NCBI GenBank assembly: GCA_900016675.1
Contig: LN483070.1
Coordinates: 1,798,001 to 1,862,000, forward strand
Reading direction: 5' to 3'
DNA length: 64,000 nt
From: Arthrobacter saudimassiliensis
GTDB lineage: Bacteria; Actinomycetota; Actinomycetes; Actinomycetales; Micrococcaceae
Shown in pieces: positions 47,989 to 57,502 of this stretch. The notes under the pieces were generated by a model. The model worked only from the letters and a program-made list of their open reading frames with translations, did no database searches and was not told the DNA's origin. Position 1 is the first letter of the stretch, and each line of letters starts with the position of its first letter. Position numbers and translations under genes: made by a program.

Positions 47989-48576
47989 TCAGTAGGGGGC
48001 TGCCTGGGCATCCGCGGGCTCCGCATCGGCTGACATGTCCTCGGGCCGGGCGGTGTCCGCTCCGGTCTCCTCGTCCCCACCGGGCAGGTCTCCGCCGGGG
48101 ATGTCCTCAACGGGCGATCCACCCCAGCCGCTGCCGTGACGACCAGGCATGTCCCCGCCGTCGGCCGGCCCGGCGGCGGAGCCGACCTCCGATCCAATGT
48201 CCTCGGCGGACCGGCCGGCCGGGTTGCGGCGGTACCGCGCCGTCCCCCACTGCAGGTCGTGCCCCACCGAATCCGCATCGACCTCGACCGCGGTGCCGCT
48301 GCGGCCGTCATCCCGTGTCCAGGGCCGGACCTTCAGCCGGCCGGTCACGAGGACCCGGTCGCCCTTCTGGACGCTCACGCCGACGTTGACCGCCAGCTGG
48401 CGGAACAGGTTCACGGTGTACCAGTTGGTCTGCCCGTCGCGCCATGTGCCCAGCATCCGGTCGTAGCGCCGTTCAGTGGTGCAGATCCGGAAGCCGGCCA
48501 CGGGGAGGCCGCTCTCGGTCGTGGTGCTGCGCACCTCGGTGGCCACGTAGCCGCGGATGGTGATGGTGTCGTTCAT
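47989..48576 (-). CDS. Single-stranded DNA-binding protein (SSB family paralogue)
   Basis: The 195-residue protein has an OB-fold of SSB type: ITIRGYVATEVRSTTT, FRICTTERRYDR, TNWYTVNLFRQLAVNV and VQKGDRVLVTGRLKVRPW. The C-terminal half is Gly/Asp-rich and acidic. The end is DAQAAPY rather than the DDDxPF tip of the replicative SSB, so it is probably an accessory SSB. The start at 48576 (MNDTITIRG) is the family start. The 190 bp upstream hold no gene. Confidence 0.87.
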   Translation of the reverse strand: MNDTITIRGYVATEVRSTTTESGLPVAGFRICTTERRYDRMLGTWRDGQTNWYTVNLFRQLAVNVGVSVQKGDRVLVTGRLKVRPWTRDDGRSGTAVEVDADSVGHDLQWGTARYRRNPAGRSAEDIGSEVGSAAGPADGGDMPGRHGSGWGGSPVEDIPGGDLPGGDEETGADTARPEDMSADAEPADAQAAPY

Positions 48577-48766
48577 CGTCGCCCCTGCCCTGTCGTCCCT
48601 CCGGGCTGCCGCCCGGGCAGCCGCCCCGTGGCGGCGTCCGCCACCAGCATCACCGGTGGGCACCGGCAGGCGGGCCGGCCGCCGCGTCCTGGGGATGGAA
48701 CGCTGGCCTCCCGCGCGGGTCGGCACTTGTGGAGGACAGGGACAGGCCGTGCCGACAGCCGGGACA

Positions 48767-49315
48767 CTACCTGCGACAGGCAGGCGCCGGGGGAAGCTCC
48801 CCGCCGTCCTCCCGAGCGGCCCCCGGGAAGCGAAGCCGTACCTGCGCCCGGGACACCGCGCCCCGGCAGGGAATCGCCAGCAGGTCCCCGACCGCGATGT
48901 CCGCCGGCAGGAGCACGGGGCCGCCGTTCAGGTCCGAGGCCTCGGAGAGCAGGCGCACGCTGCGGCGCCGCGTCCGGGCCCGCCGCCCCACAAGCCGTGC
49001 CGCGGCAAGCACGGCACGGCACCGCCCCAGGTCGGCATCGACCCACACCTCGGAGCGGCCGTGCCGGCAGGGCTCGAAGACCGCGGTGACCCTGGTCAGG
49101 AGCACCGTGCTGAACAGCTCCCTGCGCTGCCCCGCCGGCCCCGGTCCGGCGCCGGCGAGACCGATCCGCACGGAGGGCGTGGCCTCCCTGCGGCCGGCCC
49201 GGGCCAGCGACGACCCGTTGACGATCACGTCTGCGCGGGTCAGAACGGTGCCGTCCGGCCAGCACTGCTGTGCTGACACATGGGCCATCCGCCGGGCGGC
49301 CAGGATGCTGTTCAT
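48767..49315 (-). CDS. Hypothetical protein (182 aa)
   Basis: I do not recognise it. The composition is typical coding for this genome: alternating hydrophobic beta-like segments (TVLLTRVTAVFEPCRHGRSE, VLLPADIAVGDLLAIPCRG), basic stretches and no membrane helix. GAAGGGA sits about 8 nt before the ATG. It is divergent from the kdp locus and upstream of the SSB paralogue, from which 190 bp of non-coding sequence separate it. Confidence 0.5.
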   Translation of the reverse strand: MNSILAARRMAHVSAQQCWPDGTVLTRADVIVNGSSLARAGRREATPSVRIGLAGAGPGPAGQRRELFSTVLLTRVTAVFEPCRHGRSEVWVDADLGRCRAVLAAARLVGRRARTRRRSVRLLSEASDLNGGPVLLPADIAVGDLLAIPCRGAVSRAQVRLRFPGAAREDGGELPPAPACRR

Positions 49316-49685
49316 ATCGGTTTCCCTTCGTTCCCGCCGCCCGGCTCCCGTGGCCGGGCGCCCCTCGTGACGGCTGTGCTGCTGTCACTGCCCAGTCCTA
49401 CCTCTGCCGAGGACCCCGGAGGCGGGGCCACACGGAATCCAAACAGCCGGAGCCCCCACCGCCGCAGCAACGCCGACGGCGGTGAGCCGCCCCTGCCCCG
49501 CGCAGGGGGAAGGCGTTTTCGGCGCCGGCGTTTGGGCGTCGTTAGGTTTCCGCCTCGCTCCGTTTGGATTCCGTTAGGACGTGCCCGGGCCCCCTTCCGG
49601 CGGCGGTTGAATCGGTGTCCGGGCCGCGGACAGCGGCCCCCGTGCACCCGACCGGGCGCACCGATTCATTCCTCAAGGAGCCACT
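49316..49685. promoter_or_regulatory. kdp control region with three tandem-motif sites
   Basis: The 370 bp between the divergent hypothetical and the kdp genes have no gene. Copies of CGTTTGG-N4-CGTTAGG occur at 49529-49546 and 49561-49578, and an inverted copy (TGTTTGG-N4-CGTGTGG) at about 49428-49445. The half-sites are 11 bp apart, the spacing used by OmpR-family regulators such as KdpE. I see no clear -10/-35 pair downstream. The link to KdpE is inference. Confidence 0.5.
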
Positions 49686-49769
49686 GTGCAAGACATCCTC
49701 TACCTGCTCGGCGCGCTTGCCGTGTTCGGGCTGGTCAGCCTCACCGCGCGGGGGGTGCGGAAGCTGTGA
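49686..49769 (+). CDS. 27-residue membrane peptide upstream of kdpF
   Basis: A GTG start with AAGGAG 5 nt upstream opens a 27-residue [23 protein letters not shown] plus ARGVRKL, one hydrophobic helix with a basic end. Its TGA overlaps the kdpF GTG by 4 bp (GTGA). It resembles small ORFs I recall in front of actinobacterial kdpF that end in RGVxxL. It is not KdpF, which follows. Function unknown; a role in KdpFABC assembly or translational coupling is inference. Confidence 0.6.
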
Positions 49770-49855
49770 CCGCTTTCTCCCTCGTCGCCGCCGTCCTGGC
49801 CGTCGCCGCCGTCGTGTACCTCGTGTACGCACTCGTGAAGCCGGAGCGGTTCTGA
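49766..49855 (+). CDS. kdpF: K+-transporting ATPase subunit KdpF
   Basis: The 29-residue peptide has one membrane helix and ends [12 protein letters not shown], the typical KdpF tail. KdpF stabilises the KdpFABC complex. The GTG start overlaps the preceding small ORF by 4 bp, and the stop overlaps the kdpA ATG (TGATG). Confidence 0.88.
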
Positions 49856-51528
49856 TGGGCGTCCTGTTCGCGGTGCTCCAGGCAGCCACCCTCGCCCTGA
49901 TCCTGGCTGTCCTCTACCGCCCGCTGGGCGATTACATGGCACGCATCTATACCTCCGGCCGCCACCTGAGGGCAGAGCGCGGCTTCTACCGGCTGGTGGG
50001 CGTGGCCCCGGACGCGGAACAAAGCTGGCAGGCGTACCTGCGGGCGGTGCTGGCGTTCTCGTTCATCGGGTTCGTGCTCCTGTACCTGCTCCAGCGCGGG
50101 CAGGCCCTGCTCCCCTACTCGCTCGGGCTGCCGACCGTGCCCGAGGGCCTGGCCTTCAACACCGCCGCCTCGTTCGTGGCCAACACCAACTGGCAGTCCT
50201 ACTCGCCTGAGCTGACCATGGGCTACACCGTCCAGCTGGCCGGCCTGGCAGTGCAGAACTTCGTGTCGGCAGCCGTCGGCATCGCCGTCGCGGCCGCCCT
50301 GGTCCGCGGCTTCGCGCGTGTCGGGACCGGCACCCTGGGCAATTTCTGGGTCGACCTCACCCGCACGGTGCTGCGCCTGCTGCTGCCGATCTCGCTTCTC
50401 GGTGCCGTCGCCCTGATGGCCGGCGGCGTGATCCAGAACTTCAACGGCTTCACCGAGGTCACCACGCTCAGCGGCGGCACCCAGACCCTTCCGGGAGGCC
50501 CGGTGGCCTCGCAGGAGGTGATCAAGAACCTGGGCACCAACGGAGGCGGGTTCTTCAACGCCAACGCGGCGCACCCCTTCGAAAACCCGGCGGCCTGGAC
50601 CAGCCTGGCCCAGAACGTGCTGATGCTGATGATTCCGTTCAGCCTTCCCCGCACCTTCGGCCGGATGATCGGCGACAACCGCCAGGGCTACGCCATCCTC
50701 GCGGCCATGGCCGCGCTGTATCTGGCCTCCCTCACCCTCCTGACCGCCTTGGAGAACTCCGGTGCAGGCACGGCCCCGGAGCTGGCCGGCGGCGCCATGG
50801 AGGGCAAGGAACAGCGTTTCGGCGTCTTCGCCTCGACGCTCTTCGGATCCACCAGCACGCTGACCTCCACCGGCGCCGTCAATTCGATGCACGACTCGTA
50901 CACCGCACTCGGCGGGATGATCCCCATGCTGAACATGATGCTCGGCGAGGTGGCCCCCGGCGGCGTCGGATCCGGCCTGTACGGCATGCTCATGCTGGCC
51001 GTCATCACCGTCTTTATCGGCGGCCTGCTGGTCGGCCGCACGCCCGAATACCTGGGCAAGAAGATCGGCCCCCGGGAAATCAAGCTGGCCAGCCTCTACA
51101 TCCTCGTCACCCCCACCATGGTCCTGGCCGGCACCGCCCTGAGCTTCGCAGTGCCGGGCCTCCGGGGCGACATCGAGGCGGTGTCCATCTGGAACCCCGG
51201 GCACCACGGTCTCTCCGAAGTCCTTTACGCCTTCACCTCCGCCGCCAACAACAACGGCTCGGCCTTCGCCGGGCTGACCGCCAACACGCCCTGGCTGAAC
51301 GCGGCGCTGGGGGCGGCGATGCTCCTTGGCCGTTTCCTGCCGATCGCCCTCGTCCTGGCCCTGGCGGGTTCCCTGGCGGCGCAGGAGCGGGTGCCGGCCA
51401 CCGCCGGAACCCTGCCCACCCACCGGCCGCTGCTCATCGGCCTCCTCACGGGCGTGACCGTGCTGATCACCGCACTCACGTTCTTCCCGGTCCTCACCCT
51501 CGGTCCCATCGCAGAAGGGCTGCTCTGA
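49855..51528 (+). CDS. kdpA: K+-transporting ATPase subunit KdpA
   Basis: KdpA is the potassium-selective channel-like subunit. The 557-residue protein has about ten membrane helices and the conserved selectivity segments, including [40 protein letters not shown] loops and [13 protein letters not shown]. The start overlaps the kdpF stop by one base, and kdpB follows after 3 bp. Confidence 0.98.
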
Positions 51529-51531
51529 CCC

Positions 51532-53691
51532 ATGTCCACCACCATTGAGACCCCTCCCGCCGTCCACGGCGGTTCCGGACCTGACCCGCGGCCGGCGCGC
51601 CGGGCGGTTACCGCGGGTACCCTCGCCGCGGCGCTGCCCGGGGCATTCCGCAAACTCGATCCACGGGTGATGTGGCGGAACCCCGTCATGTTCATCGTCG
51701 AGGTCGGAGCGGTGCTGACCACCGTCCTGGCCGTGGCCGAGCCGTTCCTGGGCGGTCCGGGCAGCTCCGGCGGAAGCCCGGTCCCCGCAGCGTTCACCGC
51801 GGCCATCGCGGCCTGGCTGTGGGCGACCGTGCTGTTTGCGAACCTCGCCGAGTCCGTCGCGGAAGGCCGCGGCAAGGCGCAGGCGGAAAGCCTGCGCCGC
51901 ACCCGCACCGGCACCACGGCGCGCCGGGCGGCGGCGTACGACGGCGCCGGCGATCCCGGCGCCGAAAAGGCCCGGCTGGAGGAGGTCGCCTCGGCGGACC
52001 TGGACCGCGGCGACGTCGTCGTGATCGAAGCCGGCGGCATCATCCCCGGAGACGGCGATATCGTGCACGGCATCGCATCCATCGACGAATCCGCGATCAC
52101 CGGCGAATCCGCCCCGGTGGTCCGCGAATCGGGCGGCGACCGCAGTGCCGTCACGGGCGGCACCCGGGTGCTCTCGGACCGGATCGTCGTCCGCATCACC
52201 TCCAGGCCCGGCGAAACGTTCGTGGACCGGATGATCGCCCTCGTCGAGGGAGCCGCACGCCAGAAGACACCCAACGAGGTGGCCCTGAACGTGCTGCTGG
52301 CCAGCCTGTCGATTGTCTTCCTCATGGTCACGCTCACCCTGAATCCGATCGCGTCCGCGGTGGGCGTCGGCGTCACCCTGCCGGTGCTCATCGCCCTGCT
52401 GGTCTGCCTGATTCCGACCACCATCGGTGCGCTCCTGTCCGCGATCGGCATCGCCGGCATGGACCGCCTGGTGCAGCGCAACGTGCTGGCCATGTCCGGA
52501 CGCGCCGTCGAAGCCGCCGGCGACGTCACCACCCTGCTGCTCGACAAGACCGGCACCATCACCTACGGCAACCGGCGGGCCGCCGGGTTCCTGCCGATCA
52601 ACGGCGTGGGCGAAGCGGAGCTGGTCACGGCCGCCGCGCTGTCCTCCTTCGAGGATCCGACGCCGGAGGGCCGCTCCATCATGGACCTCGCCGCGGCCAG
52701 GGGACACACCCCGGAACCGCCGTCGGGAGCCCTCGGGGTGCCGTTCACCGCGCAGACCCGGATGAGCGGGATGGACCTGCCGGACGGGACCTGCATCCGC
52801 AAGGGCGCCGCCTCGGCGGTGCTGGACTGGACGGCCGCCGCGGGCGGCATCGCCATCGACGTCCGGCGGGCCGTGGAAGACACCGTCCAGGACATCTCCG
52901 CCGGCGGCGGCACCCCGCTGCTCGTGGCGGTGCGGACCCCCGACGGCGAGGTGCGGATCCTCGGCGTCGTGCACCTCAAGGACGTGGTCAAGGACGGCCT
53001 GTTGGAGAGGTTCGTGCAGCTGCGCGCCATGGGCATCCGCACCGTCATGGTCACCGGCGACAACCCGCTGACCGCCAAGGCCATCGCCGCCGAGGCGGGG
53101 GTGGACGATTTCCTGGCCGAGGCCACACCCGAGGACAAGATCGCCCTGATCCGCCGCGAACAGGCGGGCGGCAACCTGGTGGCCATGACCGGAGACGGCA
53201 CCAACGACGCCCCGGCCCTGGCCCAGGCCGACGTCGGGGTGGCGATGAACACCGGCACCTCCGCCGCCAAGGAAGCCGGGAACATGGTCGACCTCGACTC
53301 CGATCCGACCAAGCTCATCGACATCGTGGCGATCGGCAAGCAGCTGCTGATCACCCGCGGGGCGCTGACCACCTTCTCGATCGCGAACGACCTGGCCAAG
53401 TACTTCGCCATCATTCCGGCGATGTTCGTCGGCGCGTTCCCCGGGCTGGCGGCGCTGAACATCATGGCGCTGAGCTCCCCGGCCTCCGCGGTGCTCTCCG
53501 CGATCATCTTCAACGCCCTGATCATCGTGGTCCTGATCCCGCTCGCCCTGAAGGGCGTGGCCTACCGGCCCCTGAGCGCCTCCAAGGTGCTGGGTCGGAA
53601 CCTGCTGCTCTACGGCGTGGGCGGCGTCGTCGCCCCGTTCCTCGGCATCAAACTCATCGACCTGGCCGTCAGCCTCCTTCCGGGCTTCTAG
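51532..53691 (+). CDS. kdpB: K+-transporting P-type ATPase subunit KdpB
   Basis: This is the catalytic subunit of the pump. The 719-residue product shows [20 protein letters not shown] (actuator TGES), the phosphorylation motif DKTGTITYG (Asp338), the nucleotide-domain [12 protein letters not shown], and the hinge [20 protein letters not shown], with [20 protein letters not shown] in a membrane helix. It is co-transcribed between kdpA and kdpC. Confidence 0.98.
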
Positions 53692-53717
53692 CCCTTCCAG
53701 AGAAAGCACCTGTTCCC

Positions 53718-54326
53718 ATGAATCTTTCCCGTTCAGGCCTGCGCCCGGCATGGACCGCCCTGCGCGCCATGGCCGTCCTTACCCTGGCCCTGGGCCTTGC
53801 CTATCCGCTCGCCGTCACCGGTGCCGGGCAGCTGGCGTTCGCGGCGCGGGCCAACGGCTCCGTCGCCGAGGTCCGCGGCGTTCCGGTCGGTTCGACCCTG
53901 ATCGGCCAGTCCTTCACCGATGACGACGGCGAGCCGCTGCCCCAATGGTTCCAGCCCCGGCCCAGCGCGGCCGGGGACGGGTACGACGCCGGCGCGTCCG
54001 GCGGCAGCAACCTCGGCCCGGAAAACCCTGAGCTGGCGGCGGCGATCGCCGAACGCCGGGCGCAGGTCGCGGAGTTCAACGGCGTCAATCCCGGGCAGGT
54101 CCCGGTCGAGGCCCTCACCGCCTCCGCCTCCGGGCTCGATCCGCACATCAGCCCCGAATACGCCCTGCTGCAGGCGGGGCGGGTCGCTTCGGCGCGCGGG
54201 CTGGATGAGGCGCGGGTCCGCGGCCTGGTTCAGGAGCACGCCAAAGGCCGGGACCTGGGCTACCTTGGGGAACCGACCGTGAACGTGCTGGAACTGAACA
54301 TCGCCCTCGACGGGCTGGAGGACTAG
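53718..54326 (+). CDS. kdpC: K+-transporting ATPase subunit KdpC
   Basis: KdpC is a single-pass subunit that aids potassium/ATP coupling. The 202-residue product has one N-terminal helix (AMAVLTLALGLAYPLAVTGA), GQSFTDDDGEPLPQWFQPRP, SGGSNLGPENPELAAAI and the ASGLDPHISPEYALLQAGRV block with the C-terminal VNVLELNIALD. The ATG at 53718 follows kdpB by 26 bp. kdpD starts 3 bp after its stop. Confidence 0.97.
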   Translation: MNLSRSGLRPAWTALRAMAVLTLALGLAYPLAVTGAGQLAFAARANGSVAEVRGVPVGSTLIGQSFTDDDGEPLPQWFQPRPSAAGDGYDAGASGGSNLGPENPELAAAIAERRAQVAEFNGVNPGQVPVEALTASASGLDPHISPEYALLQAGRVASARGLDEARVRGLVQEHAKGRDLGYLGEPTVNVLELNIALDGLED

Positions 54327-54329
54327 GAA

Positions 54330-56813
54330 ATGAAACGAGGGCGGCTGCGGGTGCTGCTCGGCGCTGCCCCCGGCGTCGGCAAGACCTACACCATGCTCGA
54401 GGAGGGCAGGCGGCTGGCCGACGAAGGAACCGACGTGGTGGTCGCGGTCGTGGAGACCCACGGCCGCGCCGCCACGGCAGCGATGGCGCAGGGCCAGGAG
54501 GTGATTCCGCGGCGGACCGCGGTACACCGCGGCGTGGAGCTGGCGGACATGGACCTCGAGGCCGTTCTGGCCCGGCGCCCGCAGCTTGCCCTCGTCGACG
54601 AACTGGCGCATACCAACGCGCCCGGCGGCCGCCACGCCAAACGCTGGCAGGATGTCCTGGAGCTTCTGGACGCGGGCATCGACGTCATCTCGACGGTCAA
54701 CATCCAGCACATCGAGTCGCTCAATGACGTGGTGGAGGAGATCACCGGGATTCCCCAGCGGGAGACCGTTCCCGACCAGGTGCTGCGCGGAGCGGACCAG
54801 ATCGAGGTGGTGGACCTGGCACCGCAGGCGCTGCGCGACCGGCTGTCGGCCGGACGGGTCTATCCGGCCGAACGCATCGACGCGGCGCTGTCCAACTACT
54901 TCCGGCTGGGCAACCTCACCGCCCTGCGCGAGCTGGCGCTGCTCTGGCTGGCCGACGAAGTGGACAGCGCGCTGCAGCACTACCGGGAGGAACACGGGAT
55001 CCGGGGGCGGTGGGAGACCCGCGAGCGCGTGGTGGTCGCCCTGACCGGCGGCCCGGAAGGTGAGACGCTGATCCGGCGCGGCGCCCGGATCGCCGCCCGC
55101 ACGGCCGGCGGAGAGCTGCTCGCCGTCCATGTCACCGGGCAGGACGGCCTGCGGGAGGCCGACCCCGACGCCCTGGCCCGCCAGCGGTCGCTGGTGGAGA
55201 AACTCGGCGGCACCTACCACCAGGTGGTCGGCGCCGACGTGCCGCATGCCCTGGTCGAGTTCGCCTCCGGCGCCAATGCCACCCAGCTGGTGATCGGCGT
55301 CAGCCGCCGCGGACGGCTGACGGCGGCGCTCAGCGGACCCGGCATCGGCGCCACCGTCATCCGCGAGTCCGGGGACATTGACGTCCACATCGTGAACCAC
55401 TCCGCCGCGGGCGGCGGCGTCTGGCTGCCCCGGCTCGGCGGTGCGCTCACGATCCGCCGGCGGCTGCTCGGCTTCGCGCTGGCGCTGGCGGCCGGCCCGC
55501 TGCTGTCCTGGCTGCTGGTCTCGTTCCGCAGCACGGAGTCCATCACCAGCGACGTCCTCGCGTACCAGCTGCTCGTTGTCGTCGTCGCCCTGGTCGGCGG
55601 CATCTTTCCCGCGCTCTTCGCCGCCGTCCTGTCCGGCATCACCCTGGATTTCCTGTTCGTGGAACCCCTCCACACCGTCACGGTGAACGAGCCGATCCAC
55701 ATCCTGGCGCTGGGCCTGTACGTGCTCAACGCCGTGCTGGTCAGCTATGTCGTGGACCAGGCGGCGCGGCGCACCCGCACCGCGCGCCGGGCTGCTGCCG
55801 AGTCGGCGCTGCTGGCCACGATCGCGGGAAACGTCCTGCGCGGGCAGGACGCGCTGCCCGCCCTGCTCAGCCGCACCCGGGAGGCGTTCGGCTTCACCAG
55901 CGCCCGGGTGCGCGCCGAGGGGAGGGTGATCGCCGGCGACGGCGAACCGGACCCGCACGACACCGCCACGGTGATTCCGGCGGGCCCCCACGCCGTCCTG
56001 GAGCTGTACGGCAACGACCCCGAGGCATCGGAGCGCCGGCTCCTGGGCGTCATCGCGGCGCAGGTGGACGCGGCCCTGGAGCACGCCGACCTGGAGGCCG
56101 CTGCCCGCGGCATCGGCCCGCTGGCCGAGGCCGACCGGGTGCGCAGCGCGCTGCTCTCGGCGGTCAGCCATGACCTGCGCCGCCCGCTGGCGTCGGCGAC
56201 CGCGGCGGTCGGCGCCCTGCGCTCCCCCGATGTGTCGTACTCCGCTGCGGACCGCGACGAGCTGCTGGCGACCGCGGAGGAGAGCCTTGCCGCGCTGGCC
56301 GACCTGGTCACCAACCTGCTGGACGTCACCCGCGTGCAGGCCGGGGTCCTCGGCGTCGCGCTGGCACCGGTGGACGCCGACGACGTCATCCTGCCGGCGC
56401 TGGACGAACTGCAGCTGGGCCCGGACACCGTGGAACTGGACCTGGCCCAGGAGCTGGCGCCGCTGCTCGCAGACCGGGTCCTGCTGCAGCGGGTGGTCGT
56501 GAACCTGCTCGCCAACGCCGTGCGGTTCGCCCCGGCCGGCACGAAGGTCCGCATCACCACGAGTGCCTTCGGCGGAACGGAGGAGATCCGGATCATCGAC
56601 CACGGTCCGGGGATCGAGCCGGAACGGCGGCAGGACATCTTCGTGCCCTTCCAGCGGCTGGGCGATACGGACAACCTGACCGGACTCGGCCTCGGGCTCG
56701 CCCTGTCGAAGGGGTTCACCGAAGGCATGGGCGGAAAGCTGGAGGCCGAGGACACCCCGGGCGGCGGACTGACGATGGTCCTCTCCCTACCCACCTGCCA
56801 GGACGGCGTATGA
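54330..56813 (+). CDS. kdpD: Sensor histidine kinase KdpD
   Basis: KdpD senses potassium limitation or turgor and phosphorylates KdpE. The 827-residue product has the N-terminal KdpD domain with P-loop GAAPGVGKTYTML (about 10-22) and LVDELAHTNAPG, a USP-like domain (about 230-355), four membrane helices of the DUF4118 domain (about 375-480), a GAF-like region, the HisKA box VSHDLRRPLAS (His614) and an HATPase domain with LANAVRFAP. It overlaps the kdpE start by 4 bp. Confidence 0.97.
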   Translation: MKRGRLRVLLGAAPGVGKTYTMLEEGRRLADEGTDVVVAVVETHGRAATAAMAQGQEVIPRRTAVHRGVELADMDLEAVLARRPQLALVDELAHTNAPGGRHAKRWQDVLELLDAGIDVISTVNIQHIESLNDVVEEITGIPQRETVPDQVLRGADQIEVVDLAPQALRDRLSAGRVYPAERIDAALSNYFRLGNLTALRELALLWLADEVDSALQHYREEHGIRGRWETRERVVVALTGGPEGETLIRRGARIAARTAGGELLAVHVTGQDGLREADPDALARQRSLVEKLGGTYHQVVGADVPHALVEFASGANATQLVIGVSRRGRLTAALSGPGIGATVIRESGDIDVHIVNHSAAGGGVWLPRLGGALTIRRRLLGFALALAAGPLLSWLLVSFRSTESITSDVLAYQLLVVVVALVGGIFPALFAAVLSGITLDFLFVEPLHTVTVNEPIHILALGLYVLNAVLVSYVVDQAARRTRTARRAAAESALLATIAGNVLRGQDALPALLSRTREAFGFTSARVRAEGRVIAGDGEPDPHDTATVIPAGPHAVLELYGNDPEASERRLLGVIAAQVDAALEHADLEAAARGIGPLAEADRVRSALLSAVSHDLRRPLASATAAVGALRSPDVSYSAADRDELLATAEESLAALADLVTNLLDVTRVQAGVLGVALAPVDADDVILPALDELQLGPDTVELDLAQELAPLLADRVLLQRVVVNLLANAVRFAPAGTKVRITTSAFGGTEEIRIIDHGPGIEPERRQDIFVPFQRLGDTDNLTGLGLGLALSKGFTEGMGGKLEAEDTPGGGLTMVLSLPTCQDGV

Positions 56814-57502
56814 AGATCCTGATTGCCGACGACGACCCGCAGATCCTGCGCGCCCTGCGGATCACCCTGACCGCCCGCGGCTATTCCGTCGTCACCGCGG
56901 TCGACGGCGCCGGGGCGGTCAACGCCGCGGTCGAGCAGCATCCTGACCTGTACATGATCGACCTGGGGCTGCCCGGGCTGGACGGGCTGGACGTCATCCA
57001 CGCGCTGCGCGGCTGGAGCCGGGCGCCCATCCTGGTCGTCTCTGGCCGGGCCGGGGCCGCGGACAAGGTCGACGCGCTTGATGCGGGCGCTGATGACTAC
57101 GTGACCAAACCGTTCTCGGTGGATGAGCTGCTGGCCCGGATCCGGGCGCTCAGCCGCAGGGTGCCGCACGCGGATCCGGCCCCGGTGGTGCAGGTGGCGG
57201 ACCTGACCATCGACCTGGCGGCGCGGAGCATCACGCGGCGGCACGAGGGCGGAACGGACTACATCCGGCTCACTCCCACTGAGTGGGAGGTCCTGGCCGT
57301 GCTGGTGCACAACGCGGGCCGGCTGGTGACGCGCCAGGACCTGCTGCGCCGGATCTGGGGTTCGGAGCACATCACGGATACCGGCTACCTGCGCCTGTAT
57401 GTCGCCCAGCTGCGCAAGAAGCTCGAACCCGATCCCCGGCGTCCCCGCTACCTGCTGACCGAGGCGGGGATGGGCTACCGGTTCCAGCCGGACCCGGCCT
57501 GA
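56810..57502 (+). CDS. kdpE: Response regulator KdpE
   Basis: This OmpR-family regulator (230 residues) has a receiver domain with the acidic pair DDD (7-9), phosphoacceptor Asp51 in MIDLGLPG and Lys in VTKPFSVDELL, then a winged-helix DNA-binding domain (LTPTEWEVLAVLVHNAG and GYRFQPD). It should bind tandem direct-repeat half-sites, such as those in the kdp upstream region. It overlaps kdpD by 4 bp. Confidence 0.97.
   Translation: MKILIADDDPQILRALRITLTARGYSVVTAVDGAGAVNAAVEQHPDLYMIDLGLPGLDGLDVIHALRGWSRAPILVVSGRAGAADKVDALDAGADDYVTKPFSVDELLARIRALSRRVPHADPAPVVQVADLTIDLAARSITRRHEGGTDYIRLTPTEWEVLAVLVHNAGRLVTRQDLLRRIWGSEHITDTGYLRLYVAQLRKKLEPDPRRPRYLLTEAGMGYRFQPDPA

Follow-up and report, generated by a model that had tools for sequence, protein, structure and literature searches.

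A paired candidate KdpE operator upstream of the kdp operon of Arthrobacter saudimassiliensis and its conservation in related bacteria

The region upstream of the kdp operon of Arthrobacter saudimassiliensis holds two direct copies of an 18-bp box, which very probably constitute the paired operator of KdpD/KdpE for this operon. This proposal derives from a stretch of 64,000 nucleotides (the window; contig LN483070.1, positions 1,798,001 to 1,862,000) and from the kdp loci of other bacteria. It relies on the boxes, their conservation, their spacing, the distance to a -10-like hexamer and the match to a KdpE site mapped in Mycobacterium smegmatis, all of which were obtained by computation. From them we infer binding by the KdpE of the window, its dependence on phosphorylation, the activation of the operon and the order in which the boxes would be occupied. 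Such an operator is known in kind; what is new is the breadth of its consensus, the 32-bp pairing, the flipped direction and a number of further targets. In the window kdpFABC follows the two boxes, and kdpDE belongs to that cluster, with all these genes on one strand (Table 1).

Table 1. Features of the kdp region of the window, and related loci in which a gene divergent from kdp faces an inverted box
Feature	Position or loci	Strand	Description
Inverted degenerate box, TGTTTGG-ATTC-CGTGTGG, TGTTTGGATTCCGTGTGG	49428..49445	-	2 mismatches; role uncertain
Distal putative KdpE box, CGTTTGG-GCGT-CGTTAGG, CGTTTGGGCGTCGTTAGG	49529..49546	+	exact pattern match; 32 bp upstream of proximal box
Proximal putative KdpE box, CGTTTGG-ATTC-CGTTAGG, CGTTTGGATTCCGTTAGG	49561..49578	+	exact pattern match; two half-sites, 11-bp period
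-10-like hexamer, TTGAAT	49606..49611	+	45 bp from proximal box start; conserved columns in 199 loci
Small membrane-peptide ORF	49686..49769	+	GTG start, 27 aa; stop overlaps kdpF start; conserved
kdpF	49766..49855	+	GTG start, 29 aa; PF09604 and TIGR02115
kdpA	49855..51528	+	PF03814, E 1.1e-224
kdpB	51532..53691	+	E1-E2 ATPase and hydrolase domains
kdpC	53688..54326	+	PF02669
kdpD, sensor kinase	54330..56813	+	PF02702, Usp, DUF4118, HisKA, HATPase_c
kdpE, response regulator, proposed box ligand	56810..57502	+	PF00072 and PF00486; equivalents of R193, R200, T215 kept
Divergent TrkH	L087, L090, L095		strong inverted box between TrkH and kdp
Divergent permease, family	L102, L104, L112, L117, L120, L126, L127, L142		minus box

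An earlier note on this DNA had described two copies of CGTTTGG-N4-CGTTAGG placed 32 bp apart and a half-site repeated every 11 bp. Both copies are found where it placed them, matching CGTTWGG-N4-CGTTWGG exactly with 32 bp from start to start, and the 11-bp repeat is present inside each box. In the whole genome (3,552,112 bases) this exact pattern has two matches, both upstream of kdp. A relaxed exact pattern, CGTNWRGRNNNCGTNARG, also yields two matches in the 3.55-Mb genome, both in the kdp upstream region, and its reversed control likewise gives two. Loosening the pattern to at most two mismatches returns 19 genomic matches versus 39 for a reversed control pattern, so that loose matches must be regarded as noise. 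The same applies to the window, in which seven matches with up to three mismatches are not enriched relative to a shuffle mean of 10.6, and consequently only the exact copies count.

The boxes were also scored with a weight matrix grown from typed seeds and refined on 112 loci of the family Micrococcaceae, a training set that includes the window. With this matrix, which reads CGTnARG-N4-CGTnARG and has its strongest positions at T3 and A5 of each half-site, the proximal box reaches 19.9 bits, and 22.8 bits if an own-clade matrix is used from whose training the window was left out; the distal box, at 12.1 bits, is weak. The first half-sites of both carry a T where the matrix favours an A. Two unrelated minus-strand matches in the window, of 11.5 bits (18951) and 13.3 bits (29124), are as strong as the distal box, and a lone weak match therefore says little.

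Conservation was studied in the 395 genomes of the family, 114 of which (that of the window included) hold a KdpA match. From 109 of the other 113, 111 kdp stretches were taken, the genomes G098, G115, G144 and G150, whose matches were partial or broken, being left out; together with the window they make up the 112 loci. A kdp-strand box of at least 12 bits occurs in 110 of the 112, a count in which, as in those below, related loci are treated as separate although they are not independent, and relatives have the proximal box at a comparable position. With the threshold raised to 16 bits, the family kdp loci (1,276,866 bases) contain 174 matches, and 166 of these sit 100-480 bp upstream of kdpA. 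A matrix built from one clade of the family gives a best score of at least 8 bits in 60 of the 65 loci of the other clade. The check proposed in the earlier note, a search for the motif upstream of kdp in Micrococcaceae, has thus found it in nearly all relatives and also beyond that family.

The two family loci without such a box are L140, in which kdpE is divergent from kdp, and L137, which is a second copy of kdp and whose 11.5-kb stretch contains neither a kdpD nor a kdpE match. In L061, boxes are present despite a partial kdpD and no kdpE match in the stretch; kdpD and kdpE are likewise missing from L066, though the stretch of that locus covers only 3.7 kb. A search of the phylum sample for controls with kdpA and no kdpD showed KdpD above the cut-off in 58 of 60 genomes with a KdpA match, the two others being G925 (64% complete) and G952 (a KdpA fragment). 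Because nearly all genomes with KdpA also have KdpD, L137 is the only clean negative control.

Beyond the family, a held-out set was assembled from named loci (the best 80 of 584) and 30 order-level loci from 109 genomes with a match; the removal of 11 Micrococcaceae loci and of two with too little upstream sequence left 97, among which duplicates between named and order-level loci may remain. The 12-bit box is present in 78 of these 97 actinobacterial loci and absent in 19. In the class-level set (18 loci, reduced to 17 as one stretch began inside a kdpA copy) it is found in 14, and five dinucleotide shuffles per set gave only 0-3 loci with a box of that strength. Boxes of 12 bits were recorded in Microbacterium, Agromyces, Cryobacterium breve, Cellulomonas and Janibacter, as well as in Actinomyces, Bifidobacterium, Nocardia, Mycobacterium and two Streptomyces; scores of 9-12 bits were obtained for several further loci of Streptomyces and Kitasatospora. 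Plasmid kdp loci of Rhodococcus and Arthrobacter carry plus boxes of 21.6 and 13.6 bits. The upstream regions examined in Deinococcus (D. radiodurans kdpB and D. ficus) show no match at 6 bits. When the M. smegmatis box was sought in 198 genomes of one class-level genus, three had it with one mismatch, none of them with a second 9-bit box within 200 bp before or about 280 bp after.

Related genomes share sequence and loose motif matches are common, which could suggest chance or the plain shared ancestry of a short intergenic region. This is nevertheless an extremely improbable explanation, given that the flanks diverge while boxes and spacing persist, that the held-out sets are enriched relative to the shuffles, and that boxes then turned up at members of a further gene family, most of which are not near kdp.

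The pairing of the boxes is also conserved. A distance of exactly 32 bp separates the best second site from the first in each of the three sets (z scores of 9.7, 9.0 and 9.0), and the secondary offsets of 21 and 43 arise through shared half-sites. In 199 non-redundant loci anchored on the proximal box, the positions conserved beyond the box and its following A are GG at +41/+42, TT at +45/+46, A or C at +49, T at +50 and, more weakly, G at +52. These columns are read as a -10-like hexamer at a fixed distance from the box, and no conserved -35 hexamer was detected among the same 199 loci. This combination would fit an activator-dependent promoter, at which phosphorylated KdpE would recruit RNA polymerase.

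According to the model proposed here, each box would take one head-to-tail KdpE dimer, whose two subunits would contact the two CGTnARG half-sites with their 11-bp period. With a spacing of 32 bp, or about three helical turns, both dimers would lie on one face of the DNA, and the promoter that follows immediately downstream has a -10-like element and no conserved -35. When K+ becomes scarce, phosphorylated KdpE would recruit RNA polymerase, and this recruitment would switch on the peptide ORF, kdpFABC and kdpDE. An RNA leader element might be considered instead, as kdpFABC of Bacillus thuringiensis is under the control of a c-di-AMP riboswitch (PMC6488665). However, the boxes lie upstream of the -10-like element, and hence outside the predicted transcript. 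Moreover, Rfam applied to the leader region (49000-50300) offered no c-di-AMP (ydaO-type) riboswitch, and its one match, to a microRNA family (E 0.13), reached 25.1 bits versus a gathering threshold of 60, so that a riboswitch can be given hardly any probability.

The candidate that best explains the boxes is KdpE. In M. smegmatis, DNase I footprinting and EMSA have demonstrated that KdpE binds CCGTAAAGAAACCATCAAGGCC upstream of kdpF (Ali et al. 2017, PMC5401905), and this site contains the box at 24.9 bits. The same work reports that KdpE positively regulates kdpFABC, and that an 18-bp probe derived from the footprint but lacking the first bases of the first half-site was not bound (PMC5401905), as would be expected if both half-sites are needed. 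The earlier note regarded the actinobacterial operator as poorly defined; a KdpE site of this group had been mapped by 2017. On the protein side, E. coli KdpE requires R193, R200 and T215 for binding, and R193 is described as kept only among KdpE orthologues (PMC3264566); the KdpE of the window carries R, R and T at the equivalent positions. The candidate KdpE operator put forward in that note is therefore supported by kdp-linked conservation, by the mapped mycobacterial site and by the kept residues. It might be argued that another regulator of the OmpR/PhoB family, such as PhoP or MtrA, binds the boxes and that their proximity to kdp is incidental, since M. tuberculosis PhoP also binds direct repeats of 7-bp units with 4-bp spacers (PMC4832192). 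Yet the boxes track kdp, kdpDE and K+ transporter genes, they match the mapped M. smegmatis KdpE site, the exact pattern occurs in the genome of the window only at kdp, and R193, reported as specific to KdpE orthologues, is present in the protein of the window, which makes a different ligand highly improbable.

The third element upstream of kdp is the inverted copy. As the earlier note had claimed, a degenerate copy is present on the minus strand, although the perfect inverted repeat that it forms with the proximal box, given there as 12 bp, extends over 13 bp (49432-49444 with 49562-49574). It scores 9.7 bits with the full matrix and 15.7 with the own-clade matrix, and L039 and L040, which among the family loci have the KdpA closest to that of the window, show no minus-strand match of at least 7 bits. 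The genes divergent from kdp are a 182-aa ORF without Pfam match (48767-49315, minus strand) and an SSB-like gene (47989-48726, minus strand), and the inverted copy thus faces no known K+ gene. It is possible, but rather unlikely, that it works as a third functional site, forming a loop with the direct boxes or driving this divergent ORF and the SSB-like gene. A perfect 13-bp inverted repeat is improbable by chance, the own-clade score is high, and in the family inverted boxes precede divergent genes (11 of 11 cases of TrkH or permease); against this, the score with the full matrix is low, the closest loci show no counterpart, Pfam gives nothing for the divergent ORF, and the gene behind it is SSB-like rather than one of K+ transport. 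The inverted copy may be a weak third site, a relic of a lost divergent target or a local duplication, and from the operator of three copies suggested in the earlier note only the two direct boxes are retained.

In other loci, boxes also stand before divergent kdpDE and other K+ transporter genes, and they point the same way as those genes. TrkH (PF02386) and a permease, two genes divergent from kdp behind strong inverted boxes, were used as queries. One of them is divergent from kdp in 11 family loci, all of which have a 12-bit minus box (Table 1), and the only other family locus with such a box is L140, that with the divergent kdpE. Outside the family, a divergent permease homologue in the class-level locus L269 lacks a minus box, and so do a permease fragment and a distant copy in L205 and L151. 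Fifteen loci beyond the family have minus boxes: in six of them kdpD is divergent (L220, L225, L272, L285, L293, L297), six more belong to the deeper phylum set (L278-L281, L283, L299), and L223, L236 and L276 match none of the tested explanations. In L220 (Nocardia) and L272 (class-level), with divergent kdpD, boxes occur on both strands and each set faces its own gene. The 32-bp pairing is seen on either strand of L220 and, in L272, on the side of kdpD.

Boxes were then predicted at other copies of the permease gene. Thirty permease loci were fetched (the best matches of 97 of the 197 genomes with a match, some of them near-identical relatives), and in 29 a plus box of at least 14 bits starts 60-155 bp before the gene; the exception, L338, adjoins a kdpA remnant. 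Five tandem-arranged copies (L358-L362, of which L360 overlaps L330) also carry the box, and so does an Arthrobacter plasmid copy (14.3 bits). Three Streptomycetaceae plasmid copies have no plus box, as L364 and L366 show none at 9 bits and L365 has one on the opposite strand. KdpD- or KdpE-like matches were detected in four of the 30 loci (L328, L332, L337, L348), whose genomes have no KdpA match. For the permease, which is 658 aa long in the two representatives scanned, there is neither a Pfam match, nor an NCBIfam match above the cut-off, nor a convincing PDB sequence match. Some of its plasmid homologues lack an annotation, and the others are labelled APC family permease, amino acid transporter or hypothetical protein. 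In Deinococcus ficus a homologue lies directly behind the kdp genes. The permease may carry K+.

Eight strong matches were located elsewhere in family kdp loci. Two precede the permease, which there lies behind kdpE (L141, L145), two precede kdpD (L081, L082), and the other four (a pair in L042, one match in L043 and one in L112) could be assigned to no target gene. Those of L042, at -1507 and -1475 on the minus strand, form a 32-bp pair. In L081 and L082 the box sits between kdpC and kdpD, about +4.8 kb from kdpA, suggesting a separate autoregulation of kdpDE.

Another element of the putative kdp transcript is the small ORF that precedes kdpF. An ORF of 27 codons resembling the typed consensus VLDVVYVLGVIALFALVGLIAKGVEKL scores at least 30 in 155 of 259 loci (129 distinct peptides), whereas the antisense control yields none of 259, with a maximum score of 6. 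A GTG overlaps the stop codon in 127 or more of these 155. The other 104 loci have no scoring ORF, and part of the family has a different hydrophobic ORF at this place (L087 type). The peptide has no Pfam or NCBIfam match above the cut-off. In M. smegmatis, the stretch before kdpF has been described as a long 5' UTR (PMC5401905).

With regard to the cluster itself, the KdpA of the window shares 82% identity with Agromyces and Cryobacterium proteins versus 72-77% within its own genus, and its KdpE 74% with that of Cryobacterium breve versus about 60-64% within the genus. The kdp cassette and its operator (49529-57502) may have been acquired from Microbacteriaceae.

The orientation of the boxes was also compared with that of the E. 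coli site. With the family matrix, the latter scores 13.8 bits on the reverse strand and -18.8 on the forward strand. Compared in register, the M. smegmatis box and the E. coli site agree in 12 of 18 bases as reverse complement and in 4 of 18 in the same sense, the best same-sense agreement after free sliding being 7; since a composition shuffle reached 12 matching bases in 25 of 3001 trials, this single comparison is only suggestive. T-rich TTTAYA half-sites of the E. coli type were not found on the coding strand, and the likeness holds for the reverse complement, as in M. smegmatis. In 23 non-actinobacterial kdp upstream regions (E. coli and 22 plasmid loci chosen from 60 of 464 records), boxes opposite to the kdp strand outnumber those on it by 10 to 3 at 11 bits, 8 to 1 at 13 bits and 7 to 0 at 15 bits; 14 regions have no 13-bit match, and shuffles give 0-2 per strand at 11 bits. 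The kdp-strand cases are Trichormus, the sole one at 13 bits, which adjoins a divergent kinase gene, and at 11 bits also Roseomonas, adjoining a divergent kdpD, and E. coli, with matches on both strands. Taking best matches of 13 bits, the orientation is 200 plus to 9 minus in Actinomycetes versus 1 to 8 elsewhere (Fisher 1.9e-9, a value that ignores relatedness).

In the deeper phylum set (22 loci of 37 genomes with KdpA), the best match of at least 9 bits is on the minus strand in nine loci (L278-L281, L283, L285, L293, L297, L299), in three of which, L285, L293 and L297, kdpD is divergent. Five have it on the plus strand, L288-L290 as 32-bp pairs and L296 and L298 weakly, and eight have no match at that level. 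Among the literature matches listed for orientation, only PMC5401905 names KdpE, and neither the flipped likeness to the E. coli site, nor a box direction that follows the targets, nor the permease boxes were met in the literature searched.

Taken together, these data can be joined into a broader reading, whose chances we consider about even. The KdpE of Actinomycetes would read tandem half-sites like those of E. coli but in the opposite orientation to the promoter, would bind as two dimers with three helical turns between them, and would activate transcription through another face than that used in E. coli. The direction of the box would act as the address label of a K+-starvation regulon comprising kdp, divergent kdpDE, TrkH and the 658-aa permease, a candidate K+ importer that in some genomes lies near kdpD/kdpE-like genes where no kdpA was found. 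The kdp transcript would include an unannotated 27-aa membrane peptide coupled to kdpF. A KdpE operator matrix for Actinomycetes would make K+-starvation regulons readable from sequence, genes of unknown function included, and with the permease and the micropeptide the study of bacterial K+ homeostasis gains two concrete and testable candidates. The flipped orientation would in turn reconcile the "A-rich" mycobacterial and the "T-rich" E. coli sites, reported as dissimilar (PMC5401905), and raises the question of whether an OmpR-family activator can work in either orientation.

Among known systems, the PkdpF operator of M. smegmatis is the closest: the 18-bp box of the window recurs there upstream of kdpF, and its orientation is unchanged. 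PhoB and PhoP boxes resemble the KdpE box in their 7-bp direct repeats with 4-bp spacers, and differ from it in half-site sequence and regulon. PEG strongly induces the kdp genes of Arthrobacter sp. Helios, a strain of the A. citreus group (PMC9608346). As for M. smegmatis, its authors marked a SigF-type promoter at PkdpF and saw no noticeable similarity to other KdpE sites; the main text of that report does not use the term "direct repeat", and no second box was met in the passages on this site (PMC5401905). Unlike in that description, the box is here split into half-sites and taken to correspond to the E. coli site in reverse complement. The latter, TTTATA-N5-TTTACA (PMC3264566), likewise consists of two direct half-sites with an 11-bp period, but its half-sites are AT-rich, it lies on the opposite strand relative to the promoter, and only a weak second site (8.3 bits) is found 32 bp from it.
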